From NCBI GenBank assembly GCA_905478365.1, contig CAJQIK010000070.1:1-34470 (forward strand): DNA of 34,470 bases, given 5' to 3'. The notes under the pieces are model-generated. The model did not search any database. It saw only the letters and a list, made by a program, of their open reading frames with translations, and was not told the DNA's origin. Shown here piece after piece: positions 16,411 to 23,355 of this stretch. How positions within the stretch are numbered: the stretch's first letter is position 1; every line of letters starts with the position of its first letter. Source of the DNA: an uncultured Burkholderiales Genera incertae sedis bacterium (GTDB lineage: Bacteria > Pseudomonadota > Gammaproteobacteria > Burkholderiales > Eutrophovitaceae). A program made the position numbers and the translations under genes.

Positions 16411-17604
16411 ATGGACCCAGTAACGATTGCCCAAGCGTCAATATGGACTAACGGACTCATTGATTTACCCTGGTGGGGTTATGTTCTCACAGCACTAGGC
16501 CTTACTCACATCACCATAGCAGCGGTCACTATCTACCTCCATAGACACTCAGCACACCGAGCTCTTGACCTGCATCCAGTAGTTGCACATTTCTTTCGAT
16601 TTTGGTTATGGCTGACAACAGGGATGATCACGCAGCAATGGACGGCCATTCACAGAAAACACCATGCCAAATGCGAAACAGAGGAAGATCCCCACAGTCC
16701 ACAAGCTATGGGCCTGAAAAAAGTTTTCACTGAAGGCGCTGAGTTATACAAAAACGAGGCGAAGAATCAAGAAACAGTCGATAAATTTGGTCATGGCACG
16801 CCGGACGACTGGATTGAAAGACGCTTGTATGCGAAACACGAGACGATTGGGATTGTGGTCATGCTCTTTATCGATTTAATTTTGTTTGGCCCAATCGGTA
16901 TTACGATATGGGCAGTTCAAATGATTTGGATCCCCCTATTCGCAGCCGGAGTGATAAACGGGGTTGGACACGTCTTTGGGTACAGGAATTTCAACGTCGA
17001 TGATGCGAGCACAAATATTGTTCCCTGGGGCATACTCATAGGTGGCGAAGAGCTACACAACAACCACCATGCATACGCATCATCGGCTAAGCTATCCTCT
17101 CGATGGTATGAATTTGACATAGGTTGGCTATATATCCGCTTAATGGAAAGCGTAGGCCTTGCAAAGGTCAAACGAATGGCTGCGAAGGTTCAGCTATCGA
17201 CGTCTCCCCAGAGCATTGATGATCAAAAACTACAAGCGATCATTACGCATCGCTGGGATGTGCTTGCGCAGTATTCATCATCATTGAAGTCTACCTGCAT
17301 CGCGGAAGTGAAACATATCGCTGAGACTCATCGTTTTAAACGTCCGGATATAGCTAAATGGCTGTCTTTCGATCAAAAATTTGTCAGTCCGGCTGATTTA
17401 GATCGGATTAAGCAATTTGCTGATAAAAGTTCGACATTAAAGACAATAGTTAAAATGCGAGATGAATTATCTGAAGTATGGATTAAATCCACTGCGTCAA
17501 AAGAGCAACTTATCGAACAGCTTGAGGACTGGTGTAAGCGTGCAGAAGCTTCTGGAATTATTGCTTTAAAAGAGTTCTCTCATAGATTACGCCGTTACGC
17601 CTAG
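16411..17604 (+). CDS. Membrane fatty acid (acyl-CoA/acyl-lipid) desaturase with C-terminal extension
   Basis: This 397-residue integral membrane di-iron enzyme introduces a double bond in fatty acyl chains and so tunes membrane fluidity. All three histidine boxes are present: HRHSAH (44-49), HRKHH (81-85) and HNNHH (216-220), with the hydrophobic hairpins between them expected of stearoyl-CoA-desaturase-like proteins. Residues from about 255 to 397 form a soluble, helical, charged extension after the catalytic domain; I recall similar extensions in betaproteobacterial desaturases. GAGGAAA lies about 7 bases before the ATG. The gene stands alone and ends at a strong bidirectional terminator shared with rpmG. 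Confidence 0.92.
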   Translation: MDPVTIAQASIWTNGLIDLPWWGYVLTALGLTHITIAAVTIYLHRHSAHRALDLHPVVAHFFRFWLWLTTGMITQQWTAIHRKHHAKCETEEDPHSPQAMGLKKVFTEGAELYKNEAKNQETVDKFGHGTPDDWIERRLYAKHETIGIVVMLFIDLILFGPIGITIWAVQMIWIPLFAAGVINGVGHVFGYRNFNVDDASTNIVPWGILIGGEELHNNHHAYASSAKLSSRWYEFDIGWLYIRLMESVGLAKVKRMAAKVQLSTSPQSIDDQKLQAIITHRWDVLAQYSSSLKSTCIAEVKHIAETHRFKRPDIAKWLSFDQKFVSPADLDRIKQFADKSSTLKTIVKMRDELSEVWIKSTASKEQLIEQLEDWCKRAEASGIIALKEFSHRLRRYA

Positions 17605-17632
17605 TTTGCTCCTTTATTACCGTTCAATACAA

Positions 17633-17657
17633 AAAAGCCCGCTAAACGCGGGCTTTT
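17633..17657. terminator. Bidirectional rho-independent terminator (desaturase / rpmG)
   Basis: The perfect stem AAAAGCCCGC / GCGGGCTTTT (17633-17642 with 17648-17657) with loop TAAAC carries T-runs in both reading directions. It sits between two convergent genes. Confidence 0.92.
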
Positions 17658-17681
17658 AATTTCAATCTGAATCGAGCCTAA

Positions 17682-17837
17682 TTACTTCAACTTAGTCTCT
17701 TTGTAGATAACATGCTTCCTAACGACAGGATCGAATTTCTTGATCTCCATTTTCTCTGGCATGTTGCGCTTATTCTTAGTCGTTGTATAAAAGTGTCCCG
17801 TACCAGCCGAGGACTCTAATTTAATTTTATCTCTCAT
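17682..17837 (-). CDS. rpmG: 50S ribosomal protein L33
   Basis: This 51-residue ribosomal protein of the large subunit begins [20 protein letters not shown] and contains [17 protein letters not shown], the classical L33 pattern of proteobacteria. It lacks the CxxC pairs of zinc-binding L33 forms, so it is the zinc-independent type. The start lies 9 bases after the rpmB stop, the usual rpmB-rpmG pair. It ends at the bidirectional terminator. Confidence 0.96.
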
Positions 17838-17846
17838 AATTTTTCC

Positions 17847-18080
17847 TTAAATTGCCTTTCGAGCCCGCATATCGGCCAAAACAGCATCAATTCCCTTCTT
17901 ATCAATTAAACGCAATCCCGCCTGGGTAAGCCGGAGCCTGACCCACCGATTCTCACTTGCCACCCAGATCCGTTTTGAATGAAGATTCGGCAAAAATCGG
18001 CGTTTATTCCTATTATTTGCGTGGGAAACGTTGTTACCGGTTACCGGCTTCTTTCCGGTCACTTGACACACTCTAGACAT
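17847..18080 (-). CDS. rpmB: 50S ribosomal protein L28
   Basis: This is a 77-residue large-subunit ribosomal protein. The sequence [21 protein letters not shown] and the block [11 protein letters not shown], then [18 protein letters not shown], are diagnostic of L28. Only one cysteine is present in the N-terminal region, so this is a zinc-free form. It is first of the rpmB-rpmG pair and is read from the promoter about 50-75 bases upstream. Confidence 0.97.
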
Positions 18081-18126
18081 AACTTAAAGGCCTTTGATTC
18101 AGCTGTTACTATTCAGAAAACCAAGC

Positions 18127-18156
18127 TTTATACCATAGTATTGCGTTTTTTGGCAA
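18127..18156 (-). promoter_or_regulatory. Putative rpmBG promoter
   Basis: On the minus strand, TTGCCA (18156-18151) is followed by an 18-bp spacer and TATAAA (18132-18127). The bases before the -10 read TGG, giving an extended -10. The position, about 50 bases before the rpmB ATG, suits a strong ribosomal-protein promoter. Confidence 0.5.
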
Positions 18157-18254
18157 TATATTCTGCTTTAAAGTTAAGATTTTAGTGCCTGATGAATCGC
18201 ACTAATTCGGTGCCTAAGTCTTGTGTCAAATGCTAACCAGGTGTAAATTATAAG

Positions 18255-18387
18255 TGGGAAGAAACATTTCCCATCCTCTACCACAATAAGCATTAATAAT
18301 TAGGTTGAGGATGAAAATCTTGGGGGCACGTGAGCTTTCAAATACTCAGAGTGAGGTAGTACTGCCTCATAGTGGGATTACTGAGTA
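18255..18387 (+). promoter_or_regulatory. Inverted-repeat-rich leader upstream of the MBL-fold gene
   Basis: The 359-base gap 18081-18439 holds the rpmB promoter and, on the plus strand, a series of inverted repeats: TGGGAA/TTCCCA (18255-18260 with 18268-18273), CATCCTCTACC/GGTTGAGGATG (18272-18282 with 18303-18313, one mismatch), and a nested pair of TACTCAG/CTGAGTA (18343-18349 with 18381-18387) enclosing TGAGGTAGTACTGCCTCA (18352-18369). A weak plus-strand promoter (TTGTGT at 18221-18226, 17-bp spacer, TAAATT at 18244-18249) would place all of them in a roughly 185-base 5' untranslated region. None matches a riboswitch I recognise. Confidence 0.45.
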
Positions 18388-18402
18388 ATTAACAGCCTTG
18401 TG

Positions 18403-18420
18403 TTCTTGTTCGAACAAGAA
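18403..18420. repeat. 18-bp perfect palindrome TTCTTGTTCGAACAAGAA
   Basis: This exact palindrome lies 20 bases before the MBL-gene ATG and just before its AGAGGAG ribosome-binding site. It could be a repressor/activator operator or, if transcribed, a hairpin next to the ribosome-binding site. It lacks the CTG-N10-CAG pattern of lux boxes. Confidence 0.8.
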
Positions 18421-18439
18421 GTGAAGAGGAGTACTTAAT

Positions 18440-19300
18440 ATGAAGAAAGTTCTTAGTTTAGTAATGGGCGTTGCGGCTCTAGCAGTTGCTTCAACTGCTT
18501 CTGCAGGAGCAACAAAAGCCTATTGGGCAACCAGTGGAATGTTTGGTCCCTTTGCAATTAATGGCCTCATTCCAACAATACCCGCAGACGAAGTACGGGA
18601 TGTCACTATTCCTGTAAGTATGTGGATTATTGAGCACGATAAAGGTCTAGTTGTTTTTGATACAGGAAATAACATAGAAGTTGTTAACAACTGTAAAAAC
18701 TACTGGGCGCCAGGTCTGTGTGATTTCTTAAAGCCAGATCAGACTGCGGATACGACAATCGACGGATGGCTCAAGAAGTTGGGGTACACAACGGACGATG
18801 TGAAAGTCGTTGTAACTTCCCACGCTCATTTGGACCATGCTGGAAACCTAAAAATGTTTCCAAACGCGATTCACGCATTTCAAAAAGCCGAACTGTATCA
18901 AGGATGGTGGCCAGAGAAGTTCCAAGGACGTGACGGAACTGGTCCATTCGTAAAAGCTGACTTAGAAGGCACTAGAGACTATAACTTCCTAGAGCTTGAT
19001 GGTGATTACGACCTATTCGGCGACGGTAGTATGGTGATTTTAAGCACACCAGGTCACACCATTGGACACCAGTCCATGCAAGTGACTTTGGATTCTGGTA
19101 AGCGAATGCTAATCGCTCAAGATGCAATTTGGATGCAAGAGAATCTTGACGGGCATGCTGCCGGCTTAAACTTCAGCGTGCAGGCATATACCAATTCTGT
19201 GAATCGGTTGAAATTCATGAAAGACCTCCAAAATATTCCATTAATGATGGGCCACGATGAAAATCAGTGGGCTGCAGGTGGAGATCGTTGGTACAAGTAA
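18440..19300 (+). CDS. Exported MBL-fold metallohydrolase, N-acyl homoserine lactonase-like
   Basis: This 286-residue protein has a clear Sec signal peptide (MKKVLSLVMGVAALAVASTASA) and a complete dinuclear-metal metallo-beta-lactamase site: HAHLDH at 128-133, His206 in TPGHTIGH, bridging Asp228 in AQDAIW and His272 in GHDENQW. The spacings His206-Asp228 (22) and Asp228-His272 (44) equal those of Bacillus AiiA (169-191-235), which places it in the AHL-lactonase-like branch. It should act in the periplasm, unlike AiiA. Lactones are the obvious substrates, but such enzymes also hydrolyse other esters. Cys85 and Cys94 could form a disulfide. AGAGGAG gives a strong ribosome-binding site. The gene is monocistronic, ended by a strong terminator. 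Confidence 0.85.
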   Translation: MKKVLSLVMGVAALAVASTASAGATKAYWATSGMFGPFAINGLIPTIPADEVRDVTIPVSMWIIEHDKGLVVFDTGNNIEVVNNCKNYWAPGLCDFLKPDQTADTTIDGWLKKLGYTTDDVKVVVTSHAHLDHAGNLKMFPNAIHAFQKAELYQGWWPEKFQGRDGTGPFVKADLEGTRDYNFLELDGDYDLFGDGSMVILSTPGHTIGHQSMQVTLDSGKRMLIAQDAIWMQENLDGHAAGLNFSVQAYTNSVNRLKFMKDLQNIPLMMGHDENQWAAGGDRWYK

Positions 19301-19327
19301 TACGTTATAGCTAACGTAAAACTACTG

Positions 19328-19354
19328 AAACCCCCCTCACGGGGGGTTTTTTTT
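19328..19354 (+). terminator. Rho-independent terminator of the MBL-fold gene
   Basis: AAACCCCCC (19328-19336), loop TCAC, GGGGGGTTT (19341-19349), then continuing T's to 19354. This is a 9-bp perfect stem with a T-tract, placed 27 bases after the stop codon. Confidence 0.95.
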
Positions 19355-19389
19355 AGCTCCAATTATTAATCGGAAACTTTACAAATACT

Positions 19390-20367
19390 GTGTCAAATCA
19401 ACCTACACTGATATCTGTCGACTCTGTTACCAAGAGGTATGGGAGCAAAGAGATAATTCACAACATTTCCTTTGATGTAAAAAAGGGGGAAATCGTTGGC
19501 TTTCTTGGCCCGAATGGAGCAGGAAAAACTACTACGATGCGTATGATTTCTGGGTTCACCGCGCCCACTTCAGGCAAGGTAGTTGTCGCTGGGCACGATA
19601 TGTCCCACGATAACTATGCAGGAGCAAAGAAAATAGGATACCTTCCCGAACATCCACCTCTCTACGAGGTGTTAAACGTTAGACGGTATCTACAATTTGT
19701 TTCCAAAGTTAAGCGTATTAAGCGATCTCGAGTCGACTCAGAACTCGACCGTGTAATGACAGCGTGTCGACTGGAAGCAGTGAGAGATAAAGAGATTTAT
19801 AAACTATCAAAAGGGTATCGCCAGCGAGTAGGGCTAGCTCAAGCGCTCCTGGGCGATCCAGACGTTCTGTTGCTTGATGAACCAACCGCAGGTTTAGATC
19901 CCGGACAAATCCAAGAAACCCGAGAAGTCATTCGGTCTTTCGGTCAAGATCACGCGGTTCTTCTGAGTACACACATACTGCCAGAGGTAACCCTCATTTG
20001 TCAGCGTATAGCGATCATTAACGATGGTCGCATCCTGGCCGTTGATTCCCCAGAAGCTTTGCAATCCGCTTCAGACAGGACCAACAACGTGTCAATCGAA
20101 GTCAGTGGAGATAGCCACAAACTCGAGCAGGCTATTAGAACCATAAACGGCGTAAAAGACGTTAAATTCTCGCCTAATAAACATAGAGAGATGTATTTTC
20201 AGGTGGATTGCCATGTCGAGTCTCGAGACGGCATCGAGTCCGAGTTAGCAAAGATAGTAACTACCCACGGAGCCTTACATAGCCTGTCAAGACAAAAGCC
20301 AACTCTTGAAAATGTATTTTTAAAATACATTAATGATGGTACGCAACCAAAAGAGACAAAACTATGA
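19390..20367 (+). CDS. ABC transporter ATP-binding protein, GldA-like
   Basis: This 325-residue ATPase belongs to an ABC-2-type exporter. Motifs are Walker A GPNGAGKTTTMRM (about 37-49), Q-loop-region YLPEHPPLYEVLNV, signature LSKGYRQRVGLAQALLGDP, Walker B VLLLDEPTAGLDP and H-loop STHILPE; a C-terminal regulatory domain of about 100 residues follows. The GTG start lies only about 35 bases after the preceding terminator, with no clear ribosome-binding site, so the message may be nearly leaderless or rely on read-through. Its last four bases (ATGA) overlap the permease start. It resembles GldA of the gliding-motility set, but here it belongs to the Gld-like cassette found in non-gliding proteobacteria. 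Confidence 0.88.
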   Translation: MSNQPTLISVDSVTKRYGSKEIIHNISFDVKKGEIVGFLGPNGAGKTTTMRMISGFTAPTSGKVVVAGHDMSHDNYAGAKKIGYLPEHPPLYEVLNVRRYLQFVSKVKRIKRSRVDSELDRVMTACRLEAVRDKEIYKLSKGYRQRVGLAQALLGDPDVLLLDEPTAGLDPGQIQETREVIRSFGQDHAVLLSTHILPEVTLICQRIAIINDGRILAVDSPEALQSASDRTNNVSIEVSGDSHKLEQAIRTINGVKDVKFSPNKHREMYFQVDCHVESRDGIESELAKIVTTHGALHSLSRQKPTLENVFLKYINDGTQPKETKL

Positions 20368-21073: not shown

Positions 21074-22711
21074 ATGGATCAGTCATTTCGTAATCTATTG
21101 ATTCTAATACTCGGAATCACCTTCCTAATTTTAAGCGTCGTTATGGATGCGATATTGGTGGACACCTTAGTGATTGCCAATACGCTATTAGTTGCAGGTC
21201 TGCTCGTAACCATCACCGGGATTTACCTACTCCGCGCCGAACTCAATCTGTTTTTTAAAAAACAACGGGGTGAAGCCCTTGCTTGGTCACTAGGCATGGT
21301 GGGCATTGTGGTTGCGGTATGCTACTTGTCGATTAAGTACCCCTTCCGAATAGACATGACTGAAGGCGATTTGTACTCGCTATCTGCAGAAACTATTGAC
21401 ATGTTGGAGAGTATCGAAACACCGGTCCATATCAGTTTTTTTCATGACCCTATGATGCGGGATACTGTCGAGTTCTATCAATTAATTGCCTCAAAGTCTG
21501 ACCAAGTCACAGTTGAATTCCACGATCCAATGCTCAATCCATCTATTGCACGGATGAAAGGCATTGAGTTTGCAGGTACAGCGTTATTGGAGAGTGAAGG
21601 TCGTCAATTACAAGTGAATACTCCTCATGAAAGTGATATCGCGAACGGTATTTTAAAGATTTCCAGAGGAATCCAGCAAACCATTTGCTTCTTAGATGGG
21701 CATGGAGAACCAGATCCGTTCAGTTTAGAGCAGCATGATCACATAGAAGGGGATAGCGGTCACGATCATGGGCTTGGCACGCAATACGTGCTGCACGAGC
21801 GACACGGTATGGCCAAGTTACGTAACAGCCTCGAGTCAATGAACTACGTCGTTAGTAAAGTTACTTTAGCGCAAGGCAGAGGCTTAGAGGAAGATTGCGC
21901 TGTATTTATAGTCGCTGGGCCTCAAACTCCCCTTATGCAATCTGAAGTCCGGTGGATTGACCAGTACATAAGAGATGGAAACAATGCCCTCTTTATGCTT
22001 GACCCGTTCGTAACCACCGGTCTTGAGCCTGTCATTGAGCAATTAGGTGTCATCCTAAATGATAATTTGGTTCTTGATGAAGAGAGTCACTTCTGGGCTG
22101 ATATATCATCACCAGCTGTAACGAAATACAATTTACACTCGATAACAGATAATCTAACGCTCACATTTTTTCCCGGCGCCCGATCACTATCTCCTACTGA
22201 GTTACCGGTAGCTAATACAAGAGTTCGCCCGCTTATCAATACGTCTCGGAAAAGTTATGGCGAAACAGACATTACCGAACCAGGATATGAGGAAGGGGTT
22301 GATCCAAAGGGCCCTCTCACGCTAATGGTCATCGTGAATCGTAATCCTCACTATGGAAAAAATGCAGAAACTGCAATCAAGGAGTTACAAGAGGGGACAA
22401 CAGATAACAGTACCACCGACACCGTAACAGAGGATTCAACGGCCATCAGCTCCAGGATCGCGATCATTGGAGATTCGGATTTTGCGACTAACTCGTTTTT
22501 CCATGTGATGGGCAATGGAAAACTGCTATTAAGCACTATTAACTATCTAGCCGCACAAGAAAATCTAATTGGACTAGAGCCAAAATCGCTCGATATCGCT
22601 AGAGTGAATTTGACCAACACGCAAATGAAGGGAACGTTCGTTTTATCCATTATTCTGATTCCTGCGCTGATGGCCATTATCGGCATCGCCGTCTGGTGGA
22701 GAAGACGGTAA
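21074..22711 (+). CDS. GldG-like ABC transporter auxiliary protein with histidine-rich segment
   Basis: This 545-residue membrane-anchored protein has three N-terminal hydrophobic segments (about 8-27, 30-53 and 70-88), a large extracytoplasmic domain and one C-terminal transmembrane helix (about 522-541) ending in WWRRR. The extracytoplasmic domain fits the ABC_transp_aux/GldG family: FRIDMTEGDLYSLSAETIDML after the third helix, ICFLDGHGEPDP near 204-215 and RIAIIGDSDFATNSFF near 464. Between 220 and 245 it has a histidine-rich stretch (HDH at 221-223, HDH at 230-232, His241 and His244) that may bind metal. The stop and the next gene's start share a base (TAATG). Confidence 0.85.
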   Translation: MDQSFRNLLILILGITFLILSVVMDAILVDTLVIANTLLVAGLLVTITGIYLLRAELNLFFKKQRGEALAWSLGMVGIVVAVCYLSIKYPFRIDMTEGDLYSLSAETIDMLESIETPVHISFFHDPMMRDTVEFYQLIASKSDQVTVEFHDPMLNPSIARMKGIEFAGTALLESEGRQLQVNTPHESDIANGILKISRGIQQTICFLDGHGEPDPFSLEQHDHIEGDSGHDHGLGTQYVLHERHGMAKLRNSLESMNYVVSKVTLAQGRGLEEDCAVFIVAGPQTPLMQSEVRWIDQYIRDGNNALFMLDPFVTTGLEPVIEQLGVILNDNLVLDEESHFWADISSPAVTKYNLHSITDNLTLTFFPGARSLSPTELPVANTRVRPLINTSRKSYGETDITEPGYEEGVDPKGPLTLMVIVNRNPHYGKNAETAIKELQEGTTDNSTTDTVTEDSTAISSRIAIIGDSDFATNSFFHVMGNGKLLLSTINYLAAQENLIGLEPKSLDIARVNLTNTQMKGTFVLSIILIPALMAIIGIAVWWRRR

Positions 22712-23355
22712 TGCGTTCAAATCTGACCCTCAAGGTCGTATGGGTCATCTTATTTTGGCTAATTGCATTCATCGTTTTCATTAACTTAAATCAAAGTGGG
22801 GAGGAAACAAAAGATAACCATGCTGGACACGGTGACCATAAAAATGTATTTGAAAGTGGCGCCCTACTTCCTGTTGGACTATCTGAAATTTTTTCTGTGG
22901 AGCTTGTTTATCAAGGGAATTTGTATCTCTTGGAAAAGGATGAAGCCGGACACTGGTTTTACCATGCTCATGGCGCGACAAACGGAGTATTAGAATCGCA
23001 TGAGCACGTGGCCACGCCTGATGAAAACGAAACCATCTCTGTTTCATTAATGGGTCTCGAAAACGCTAGAGTAGAGAGACGCCTTAAAACTAGAGAGAAA
23101 GACGCATATGGCGTTACAAAACCATCTTTAATCTCGCTTCTCTATGGCTGGGATAAGTCACGACCTATCAGCCAATTTGCGTTTGGTGACTTAGCGACGG
23201 ACCGCCTAAGTCGATATATTCATCTCGTTGGCTCAGATCAAGTAGCCACAATTGCAGACTACCAATATACAAACCTAATTGAATTAGTAGAGAAGATACA
23301 AACAATCAATCAAGAAGCCAGTCGAGAAATATCAAAATCGCGAAAAGACCAATAA
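22711..23355 (+). CDS. DUF4340-like membrane-anchored protein of the ABC export cassette
   Basis: This 214-residue protein has one N-terminal membrane anchor (about 8-26) and a soluble domain outside the cytoplasm. The ATG at 22711 is preferred to a GTG 15 bases upstream: it overlaps the previous stop as TAATG and has GGAG 9 bases before it. DUF4340 proteins usually follow GldFG-like genes, and features such as FSVELVYQGNLYLLEKDEAGHW and AYGVTKPSLISLLYG fit the repeated beta-type DUF4340 unit. Two histidine clusters stand out: His37/40/43 (HAGHGDH) and His81/85/87/97/99. They match the histidine-rich stretch in the partner protein and hint at metal binding. Function is unknown. Confidence 0.72.
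   Translation: MRSNLTLKVVWVILFWLIAFIVFINLNQSGEETKDNHAGHGDHKNVFESGALLPVGLSEIFSVELVYQGNLYLLEKDEAGHWFYHAHGATNGVLESHEHVATPDENETISVSLMGLENARVERRLKTREKDAYGVTKPSLISLLYGWDKSRPISQFAFGDLATDRLSRYIHLVGSDQVATIADYQYTNLIELVEKIQTINQEASREISKSRKDQ

Follow-up and report, generated by a model that had tools for sequence, protein, structure and literature searches.

What does a perfectly symmetrical sequence do when it lies directly beside a ribosome-binding site? In the window, the whole stretch of 34,470 nucleotides that was analysed, the 18 bases TTCTTGTTCGAACAAGAA are fully self-complementary, including the TCGA centre of the dyad; as RNA, they would make a 7-bp stem with the loop UCGA. They lie 5 bases before the Shine-Dalgarno sequence GAGGAG and 19 bases before the ATG of a gene for an MBL-fold protein. 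The original prediction described this palindrome exactly and took it for the operator of a dimeric repressor. Our analysis leans, if gently, towards a different answer, in which the mRNA of the MBL-fold gene has a structured 5' leader and the palindrome works as its final stem-loop. The features on which the argument turns are as follows.

18221–18249, plus strand: promoter-like sequence, TTGTGT and TAAATT with a 17-nt spacer, inferred from conservation
18254–18274, plus strand: H1, a hairpin close to where the mRNA is expected to begin, taken from folds; in an alternative fold its last bases overlap H2
18272–18313, plus strand: H2, a second hairpin with a long A-rich loop, from the predicted fold
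18324–18405, plus strand: long imperfect hairpin, from folds and paired changes
18324–18330 with 18399–18405, plus strand: P1, a weaker, G-U-rich helix outside the alignment pair count
18332–18336 with 18394–18398, plus strand: P1b, a helix with paired changes
18343–18347 with 18383–18387, plus strand: P2, a helix with paired changes
18352–18358 with 18363–18369, plus strand: P3, a helix with paired changes
18353–18368, plus strand: the P3 tip GAGGTAGTACTGCCTC, nearly invariant, found at the locus in 8 of 9 genomes and varying in G005 and G008
18403–18420, plus strand: the perfect palindrome
18426–18431, plus strand: Shine-Dalgarno site GAGGAG, invariant in 9 of 9 genomes
18440–19300, plus strand: gene for the MBL-fold protein, 286 aa, downstream of the leader (Pfam PF00753, 51.7 bits)

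No other perfect palindrome of at least 18 bp occurs in the window, where 40 dinucleotide shuffles gave a mean of 0.25 such palindromes per window and at least one in 10 of the 40. Because a palindrome of this kind is not rare in a window of this size, its symmetry by itself proves little and its weight rests on conservation.

We compared nine genomes of the genus, G000 (the 1.83-Mb source genome) to G008, and a family set of 17 genomes. Five genomes form clade A (G000, G001, G003, G005, and G006) and three form clade B (G002, G007, and G008), with G004 standing apart. The 14-nt core of the palindrome, CTTGTTCGAACAAG, is present in exactly one copy in each of the clade A genomes, always before the MBL gene. 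An exact copy of the core is absent genome-wide from G002 and G004; among the matches listed, the best in G007 carries one mismatch and there is none in G008. At the MBL locus, the palindrome is absent from G002, G004, G007, and G008, and in clade B the stretch aligned to it is no longer palindromic. Within clade A, 16 of the 18 palindrome columns are invariant, compared with 42 of the gene's 119 fourfold-degenerate sites. P3 reaches 13 of 16 and the stretch from the end of the palindrome to the ATG 17 of 25; the remaining parts of the element have 4 of 25, 1 of 11, 3 of 24, and 5 of 15. With the core in five of nine genomes and its columns held this well, the idea of a conserved and probably functional site is borne out.

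The palindrome of G006 is identical to that of G000 at 18 of 18 positions, though identity between the two genomes is 0.50 at fourfold sites and 0.57 in the upstream leader. In G001, 150-base windows over most of the MBL gene are 0.95–1.00 identical to G000; the figures are 0.76–0.91 for desA and 0.49 for the upstream leader. The tract common to G000 and G001, at 18440–20000 in the window and in L096, runs over the MBL gene and some way into the ABC gene, with an identity of 0.91 in two windows. It is a sign of probable recombination, with an edge near the leader. Since G001 shows this mosaic relation to G000 over the gene, its copy of the palindrome may be non-independent and may have arrived with the gene; judged by sequence identity, G006 is the better witness of palindrome conservation.

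The ninth genome, G004, offers a natural absence. At its locus (L103 4030–4200, minus strand), the sequence between the end of H2 and the Shine-Dalgarno region is absent; the promoter-like sequence, H1, H2, the Shine-Dalgarno site, and the MBL gene are retained. At fourfold sites, G004 is 0.67–0.68 identical to clade B versus 0.43–0.52 to clade A, and nucleotide identity agrees; amino-acid identity (0.79–0.82 to clade B, 0.81–0.84 to clade A) shows no leaning to clade B. Because G004 is nearer to clade B at fourfold sites, the absence there would be a loss.

The gene behind the leader has a homologue in all nine genus genomes and in 16 of the 17 family genomes, and the N-terminus of its protein looks by eye like a signal peptide. 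It had been called AHL-lactonase-like: the MBL fold is confirmed by the match to PF00753, while the lactonase label stays unproven, as the NCBIfam AHL lactonase models all fall below their cut-offs (the best, AttM, scores 159.7 bits against 390). A second, distant MBL-fold match with 33% identity lies elsewhere in the same genome (G000:C43:1457–1888), and a second weak match of this kind is found in seven of the nine genus genomes. All 15 loci compared, from 15 of the 16 genomes with the gene (G014 being left out), have the same order: desA, L33 and L28 (named by Pfam, on the other strand), MBL gene, and ABC ATPase. Next come an ABC permease gene and a gldG-like gene in 14 of these 15; in G003 the contig ends earlier. 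In the window, 16411–17604 encodes a DesA-family fatty acid desaturase with an NCBIfam ISL3-like tail domain, and a 219-aa open frame past the gldG-like gene (22696–23355) has no NCBIfam or Pfam match. A strong hairpin resembling an intrinsic terminator lies at 19327–19350, directly 3' of the MBL gene, so that the gene may be transcribed singly.

Is the palindrome part of that transcript? The pattern CTTG...GTGTA[ACG]ATT occurs upstream with constant spacing in eight of nine genus genomes, and G001 has only GTGTAACGTT; the consensus promoter scan of the window does not list this promoter-like sequence at 18221–18249. The palindrome begins 154 nt past the end of the -10-like hexamer. As it lies downstream of a conserved promoter-like sequence, the palindrome is probably transcribed, and would thus probably fall within the leader of the MBL gene.

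The 5' part of this leader is predicted to start with structure. H1 folds as a hairpin 6–9 nt past the -10-like hexamer in all nine genomes, including G001 despite its unrelated sequence; of 500 shuffles, 4 to 96 do as well as the H1 segment alone or better. H2 has a counterpart in eight of the nine folds, with G005 folding differently. The first 66 nt of the leader fold better than shuffles in seven of nine genomes (at most 20 of 500 shuffles), compared with 108 of 500 in G005 and 86 of 500 in G004. The A-rich loop of H2 contains a partly common CACAA.AAG..TTAA-like sequence in several genomes, and partly in G004.

The long hairpin that follows is found in eight of nine genomes, three of which have a decayed palindrome; G004 lacks both. 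We counted paired changes in a MAFFT alignment of eight sequences, leaving out G004, which has no such element. H1 and H2 are poorly aligned by MAFFT, and the counts cover P1b, P2, P3, and the palindrome stem. Over P1b, P2, and P3, 88.1% of 135 cells are paired and 7 of 17 pairs show two-sided change (10 such cells), a count favoured by the fact that the helices were drawn from folds of the same eight sequences and that P1b was added after inspection. Shuffles, which ignore kinship among these few and related sequences, average 2.6 two-sided pairs, and none of 500 attains the observed paired cells, two-sided pairs, or two-sided cells; slid registers are 33–47% paired with 2–4 such pairs. For P2 and P3 alone, two-sided change is seen in 4 of 12 pairs, which 3 of 500 shuffles reach. 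The clearest single support for covariation comes from columns 31 and 99, where four pair types occur.

Folding energies were computed for the same region. Between 18310 and 18442, the 133 nt have a more stable predicted fold than shuffles do (z −2.27, 3 of 200). Compared with 60 shuffled leaders, the ensemble energy of the whole leader lies 2.4–3.0 sd lower in four of five clade A genomes and about 1 sd lower in G005, but just 0.7–1.4 sd lower in clade B and 0.5 in G004. A fold containing P1, P2, and P3 in full lies 1.0–5.8 kcal/mol above the minimum across the eight sequences; the window has the value of 5.8, and the palindrome hairpin is lost there. Forcing P2 and P3 alone costs 0–5.1 kcal/mol in the eight sequences, and in G000, G003, and G006 the palindrome hairpin is present in such forced folds, 0–2.4 kcal/mol above the minimum. 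The P3 tip has no second copy in G000 at zero or one mismatch except its own reverse strand. Helices supported by paired changes are the mark of a structured leader RNA, and P1b, P2, and P3 are such helices. The leader of the MBL gene is very probably a structured RNA.

The palindrome's own stem shows no clear or convincing covariation. In the eight sequences, 78.6% of its cells are paired and one of seven pairs shows two-sided change, as in shuffles (430 of 500). The stem is above shuffles in paired cells (2 of 500) and in covariation score (11 of 500), both of which rest on the split between the two clades. Predicted pair probabilities are 0.76–0.95 in G000, 0.77–0.90 in G003, and 0.35–0.92 in G006, and at most 0.13 in G001 and G005, where the outer pairs of the stem are broken. 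For the 81 nt around the palindrome, the predicted fold is no more stable than in shuffles (z −0.11, 90 of 200).

The bases of the palindrome have other potential partners. Its first 3 nt overlap the 3' strand of P1, its 5' arm can also pair with the 5' strand of P1, and full P1 and the palindrome hairpin are mutually exclusive in the window. The UUCUU of the 5' arm can pair with the Shine-Dalgarno site, which is the pairing chosen by RNAalifold; the columns of this pairing show no two-sided change. The predicted accessibility of the Shine-Dalgarno site is below the shuffled mean in eight of nine leaders, with no clear difference from 60 shuffled leaders: the ranks run from 6 to 36 (6, 11, 22, 9, and 36 in clade A; 28, 19, and 17 in clade B; 12 in G004). 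Sequestration of the Shine-Dalgarno site as a proven switch is not supported by this comparison. Because accessibility is not clearly different from shuffles, we claim a structure for the leader and put the switch forward as a proposal.

A DNA operator is the rival that survives best, and we regard it as possible but rather doubtful. A dimeric regulator would bind the 14–18-bp dyad and form a transcription roadblock downstream of the promoter. Operators have a dyad symmetry of about 14–20 bp, as does this site; indeed, the dyad is perfect through its centre, and an operator needs a self-complementary TCGA where the loop of a functional RNA hairpin need not have one. What is conserved is sequence rather than pairing: CTTGTTCGAACAAG is invariant in five of five clade A genomes, with variable flanks. 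Operators are also expected to recur at the regulator's own gene or at other targets, and here no recurrence was found, although the site of a single-target regulator would escape such a search. In the genome-wide search that had been proposed, the 18-mer is unique in G000 at up to two mismatches (two further listed sites carry three); the core is kept in relatives.

A regulon of the palindrome was considered and rejected, with no second site and 17 of 18 near-matches in G000 lying inside open frames of 147–567 aa. These 18, counted in G000 alone, are the 13 other 14-mer sites and 5 more places that differ from the 12-mer by one base; the exceptional one, in L143, falls within no open frame of at least 60 aa. 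Over the nine genomes, the 14-mer at up to two mismatches is commoner than its reversed control (95 versus 64 places). Since this excess also appears in three of the four genomes without the palindrome (G004 is below its control), and since the near-matches fall in open frames, we read it as composition or codon use.

That no regulator gene lies nearby was already noted, and our scan agrees: none of the 30 window proteins scanned with Pfam and NCBIfam (28 of 45 listed ORFs and two small ones) matches a transcription-regulator family. A lux box would call for a LuxR-type regulator in the genome, and the autoinducer-binding domain PF03472 was found in none of the nine genus genomes (control positive in 1 of 14, E. 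coli); the LuxI-type synthase PF00765 was likewise found in none of the nine, but its control was positive in 0 of 14. The advice to look near TetR, LuxR, or MarR genes, followed genome-wide for the first two types, led to two TetR-type matches in the genome, with no resembling site at up to 2 mismatches of 12 in the DNA examined, and no LuxR domain to look beside. Finally, operators overlap or adjoin a promoter; this site lies inside a structured stretch about 155 nt downstream of the putative promoter, and it is absent or degenerate in four of nine genomes that retain the gene. With no second site, a position far past the promoter-like sequence, and a fold supported by paired changes, the reading as a dimeric-repressor operator is not upheld.

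A riboswitch is unlikely. The P1–P3 hairpin would bind a ligand as the aptamer, with the palindrome arm and the Shine-Dalgarno site serving as its expression platform. Consistent with this, the P3 tip is nearly invariant inside covarying helices, and the 3' strand of P1, the palindrome hairpin, and the Shine-Dalgarno pairing compete for the same bases; in clade B, the 5' strand of P2, AAUACUCC (AAUAUUCC in G007), can form 8 bp with GGAGUAUU at the Shine-Dalgarno site. However, the accessibility of that site is not clearly unlike that in shuffled leaders, and the fold is a simple rod with a short tip in which no junction is seen. The element is also confined to one gene in one genus and is missing from G004, which retains the gene.

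It is quite improbable that the palindrome arose by chance and was kept, functionless, through shared ancestry. The expectation of 0.25 per window, its absence or decay in four of nine genomes, and the possibility that G001 holds a recombinant copy all fit such a history, but G006 keeps all 18 letters, although identity to G000 is no more than 50% at its fourfold sites and 0.57 in its upstream leader. A translated upstream open frame through P3 (..EVVLP..), with the palindrome as part of an attenuator, is very unlikely and was judged weak: the frame at 18311–18388 reads EVVLP in seven of eight sequences and EALLP in G005, and six of the eight offer a potential start codon for it, but G001 and G006 have no in-frame ATG, GTG, TTG, or CTG start, the stop varies from −31 to −64, and it is the flanking helices that covary.

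How might the palindrome work as the last stem-loop of a structured leader? Transcription would start near 18254; with this inferred start, H1 would form the 5' end of the mRNA, much as in stabilisers of the 5'-terminal stem-loop type. Together, the palindrome hairpin and the long hairpin would pack the leader into helices beside a short strand that bears the Shine-Dalgarno site, and this packing would set mRNA stability and translation. In such a model, the palindrome stem-loop would most likely tune ribosome access or mRNA stability. More speculatively, the 5' arm is common to three pairings (with its own 3' arm, the 5' strand of P1, and the Shine-Dalgarno site), so the hairpin may be a switch element. 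It is a long shot that P1–P3 and the palindrome hairpin form a small, undescribed regulatory RNA class sensing a small molecule, perhaps one that the exported lactonase-like enzyme consumes or produces, in which the 5' arm would switch among the three partners and so open or close the ribosome-binding site.

We searched for relatives of the element with an RNA model, R1, built from the eight genus sequences. In the 17 family genomes, its strong matches are in its eight source genomes, once each, at the MBL gene; two poor ones lie in G004 (E 0.076) and, as an additional match there, in G006 (E 0.9). Under stricter filters, six of 399 genomes of the order match, all from this genus, with G003 and G006 not among the matches listed. 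On eleven loci, R1 gave four poor matches, the best with E 0.051. The P3 16-mer has three exact matches in viral contigs, of which R1 scored one, across the 16-nt tip alone; the palindrome with the Shine-Dalgarno site was found in no viral contig. Within the window, every Rfam family stays under its gathering score, and the 13 weak matches in 17500–19400 are all below theirs. In the literature, TTGTTCGAACAA occurs in papers on other subjects, judged by title, and a search for homoserine lactonase with riboswitch found neither term in any title or abstract. As far as Rfam and the literature were searched, the leader is ordinary in kind and new as a particular leader.

An isolated palindrome thereby becomes part of a compact covarying leader, seen in one genus so far and with no Rfam match at threshold, that precedes a conserved MBL-fold gene, its product probably exported, in little-studied betaproteobacteria. 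If the leader regulates, it would help tell when the cells make the MBL enzyme, and the natural absence in G004 and the decay of the palindrome in clade B are ready-made comparisons.

How does the locus compare with known systems? Dimeric regulators of the TetR, MarR, and LuxR types bind palindromic operators. The perfect dyad of typical length resembles these; it differs in being a single site, with no linked regulator found, about 155 nt past the promoter-like sequence. Like the translational riboswitches and cis-regulatory leaders of Rfam, the element has covarying helices directly 5' of the Shine-Dalgarno site and alternative pairings; unlike them, it scores below every gathering score and occurs at one gene only. 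The leader of E. coli ompA starts with a stem-loop and, past further hairpins, has a short strand bearing the Shine-Dalgarno site. In work by Chen in 1991, Emory in 1992, and Arnold in 1998, this 5' untranslated region is reportedly an mRNA stabiliser of the 5'-terminal stem-loop type. Parts of PMC7509114 and PMC3997798 treat stabilisers of the ompA type. The leader described here differs from ompA in its nearly invariant P3 tip and its palindrome, its start site is a predicted one, and we claim no sequence relation. The likeness is one of layout: here too, a probably exported protein has a leader that seems to open with a stem-loop and to place the Shine-Dalgarno strand after further hairpins.
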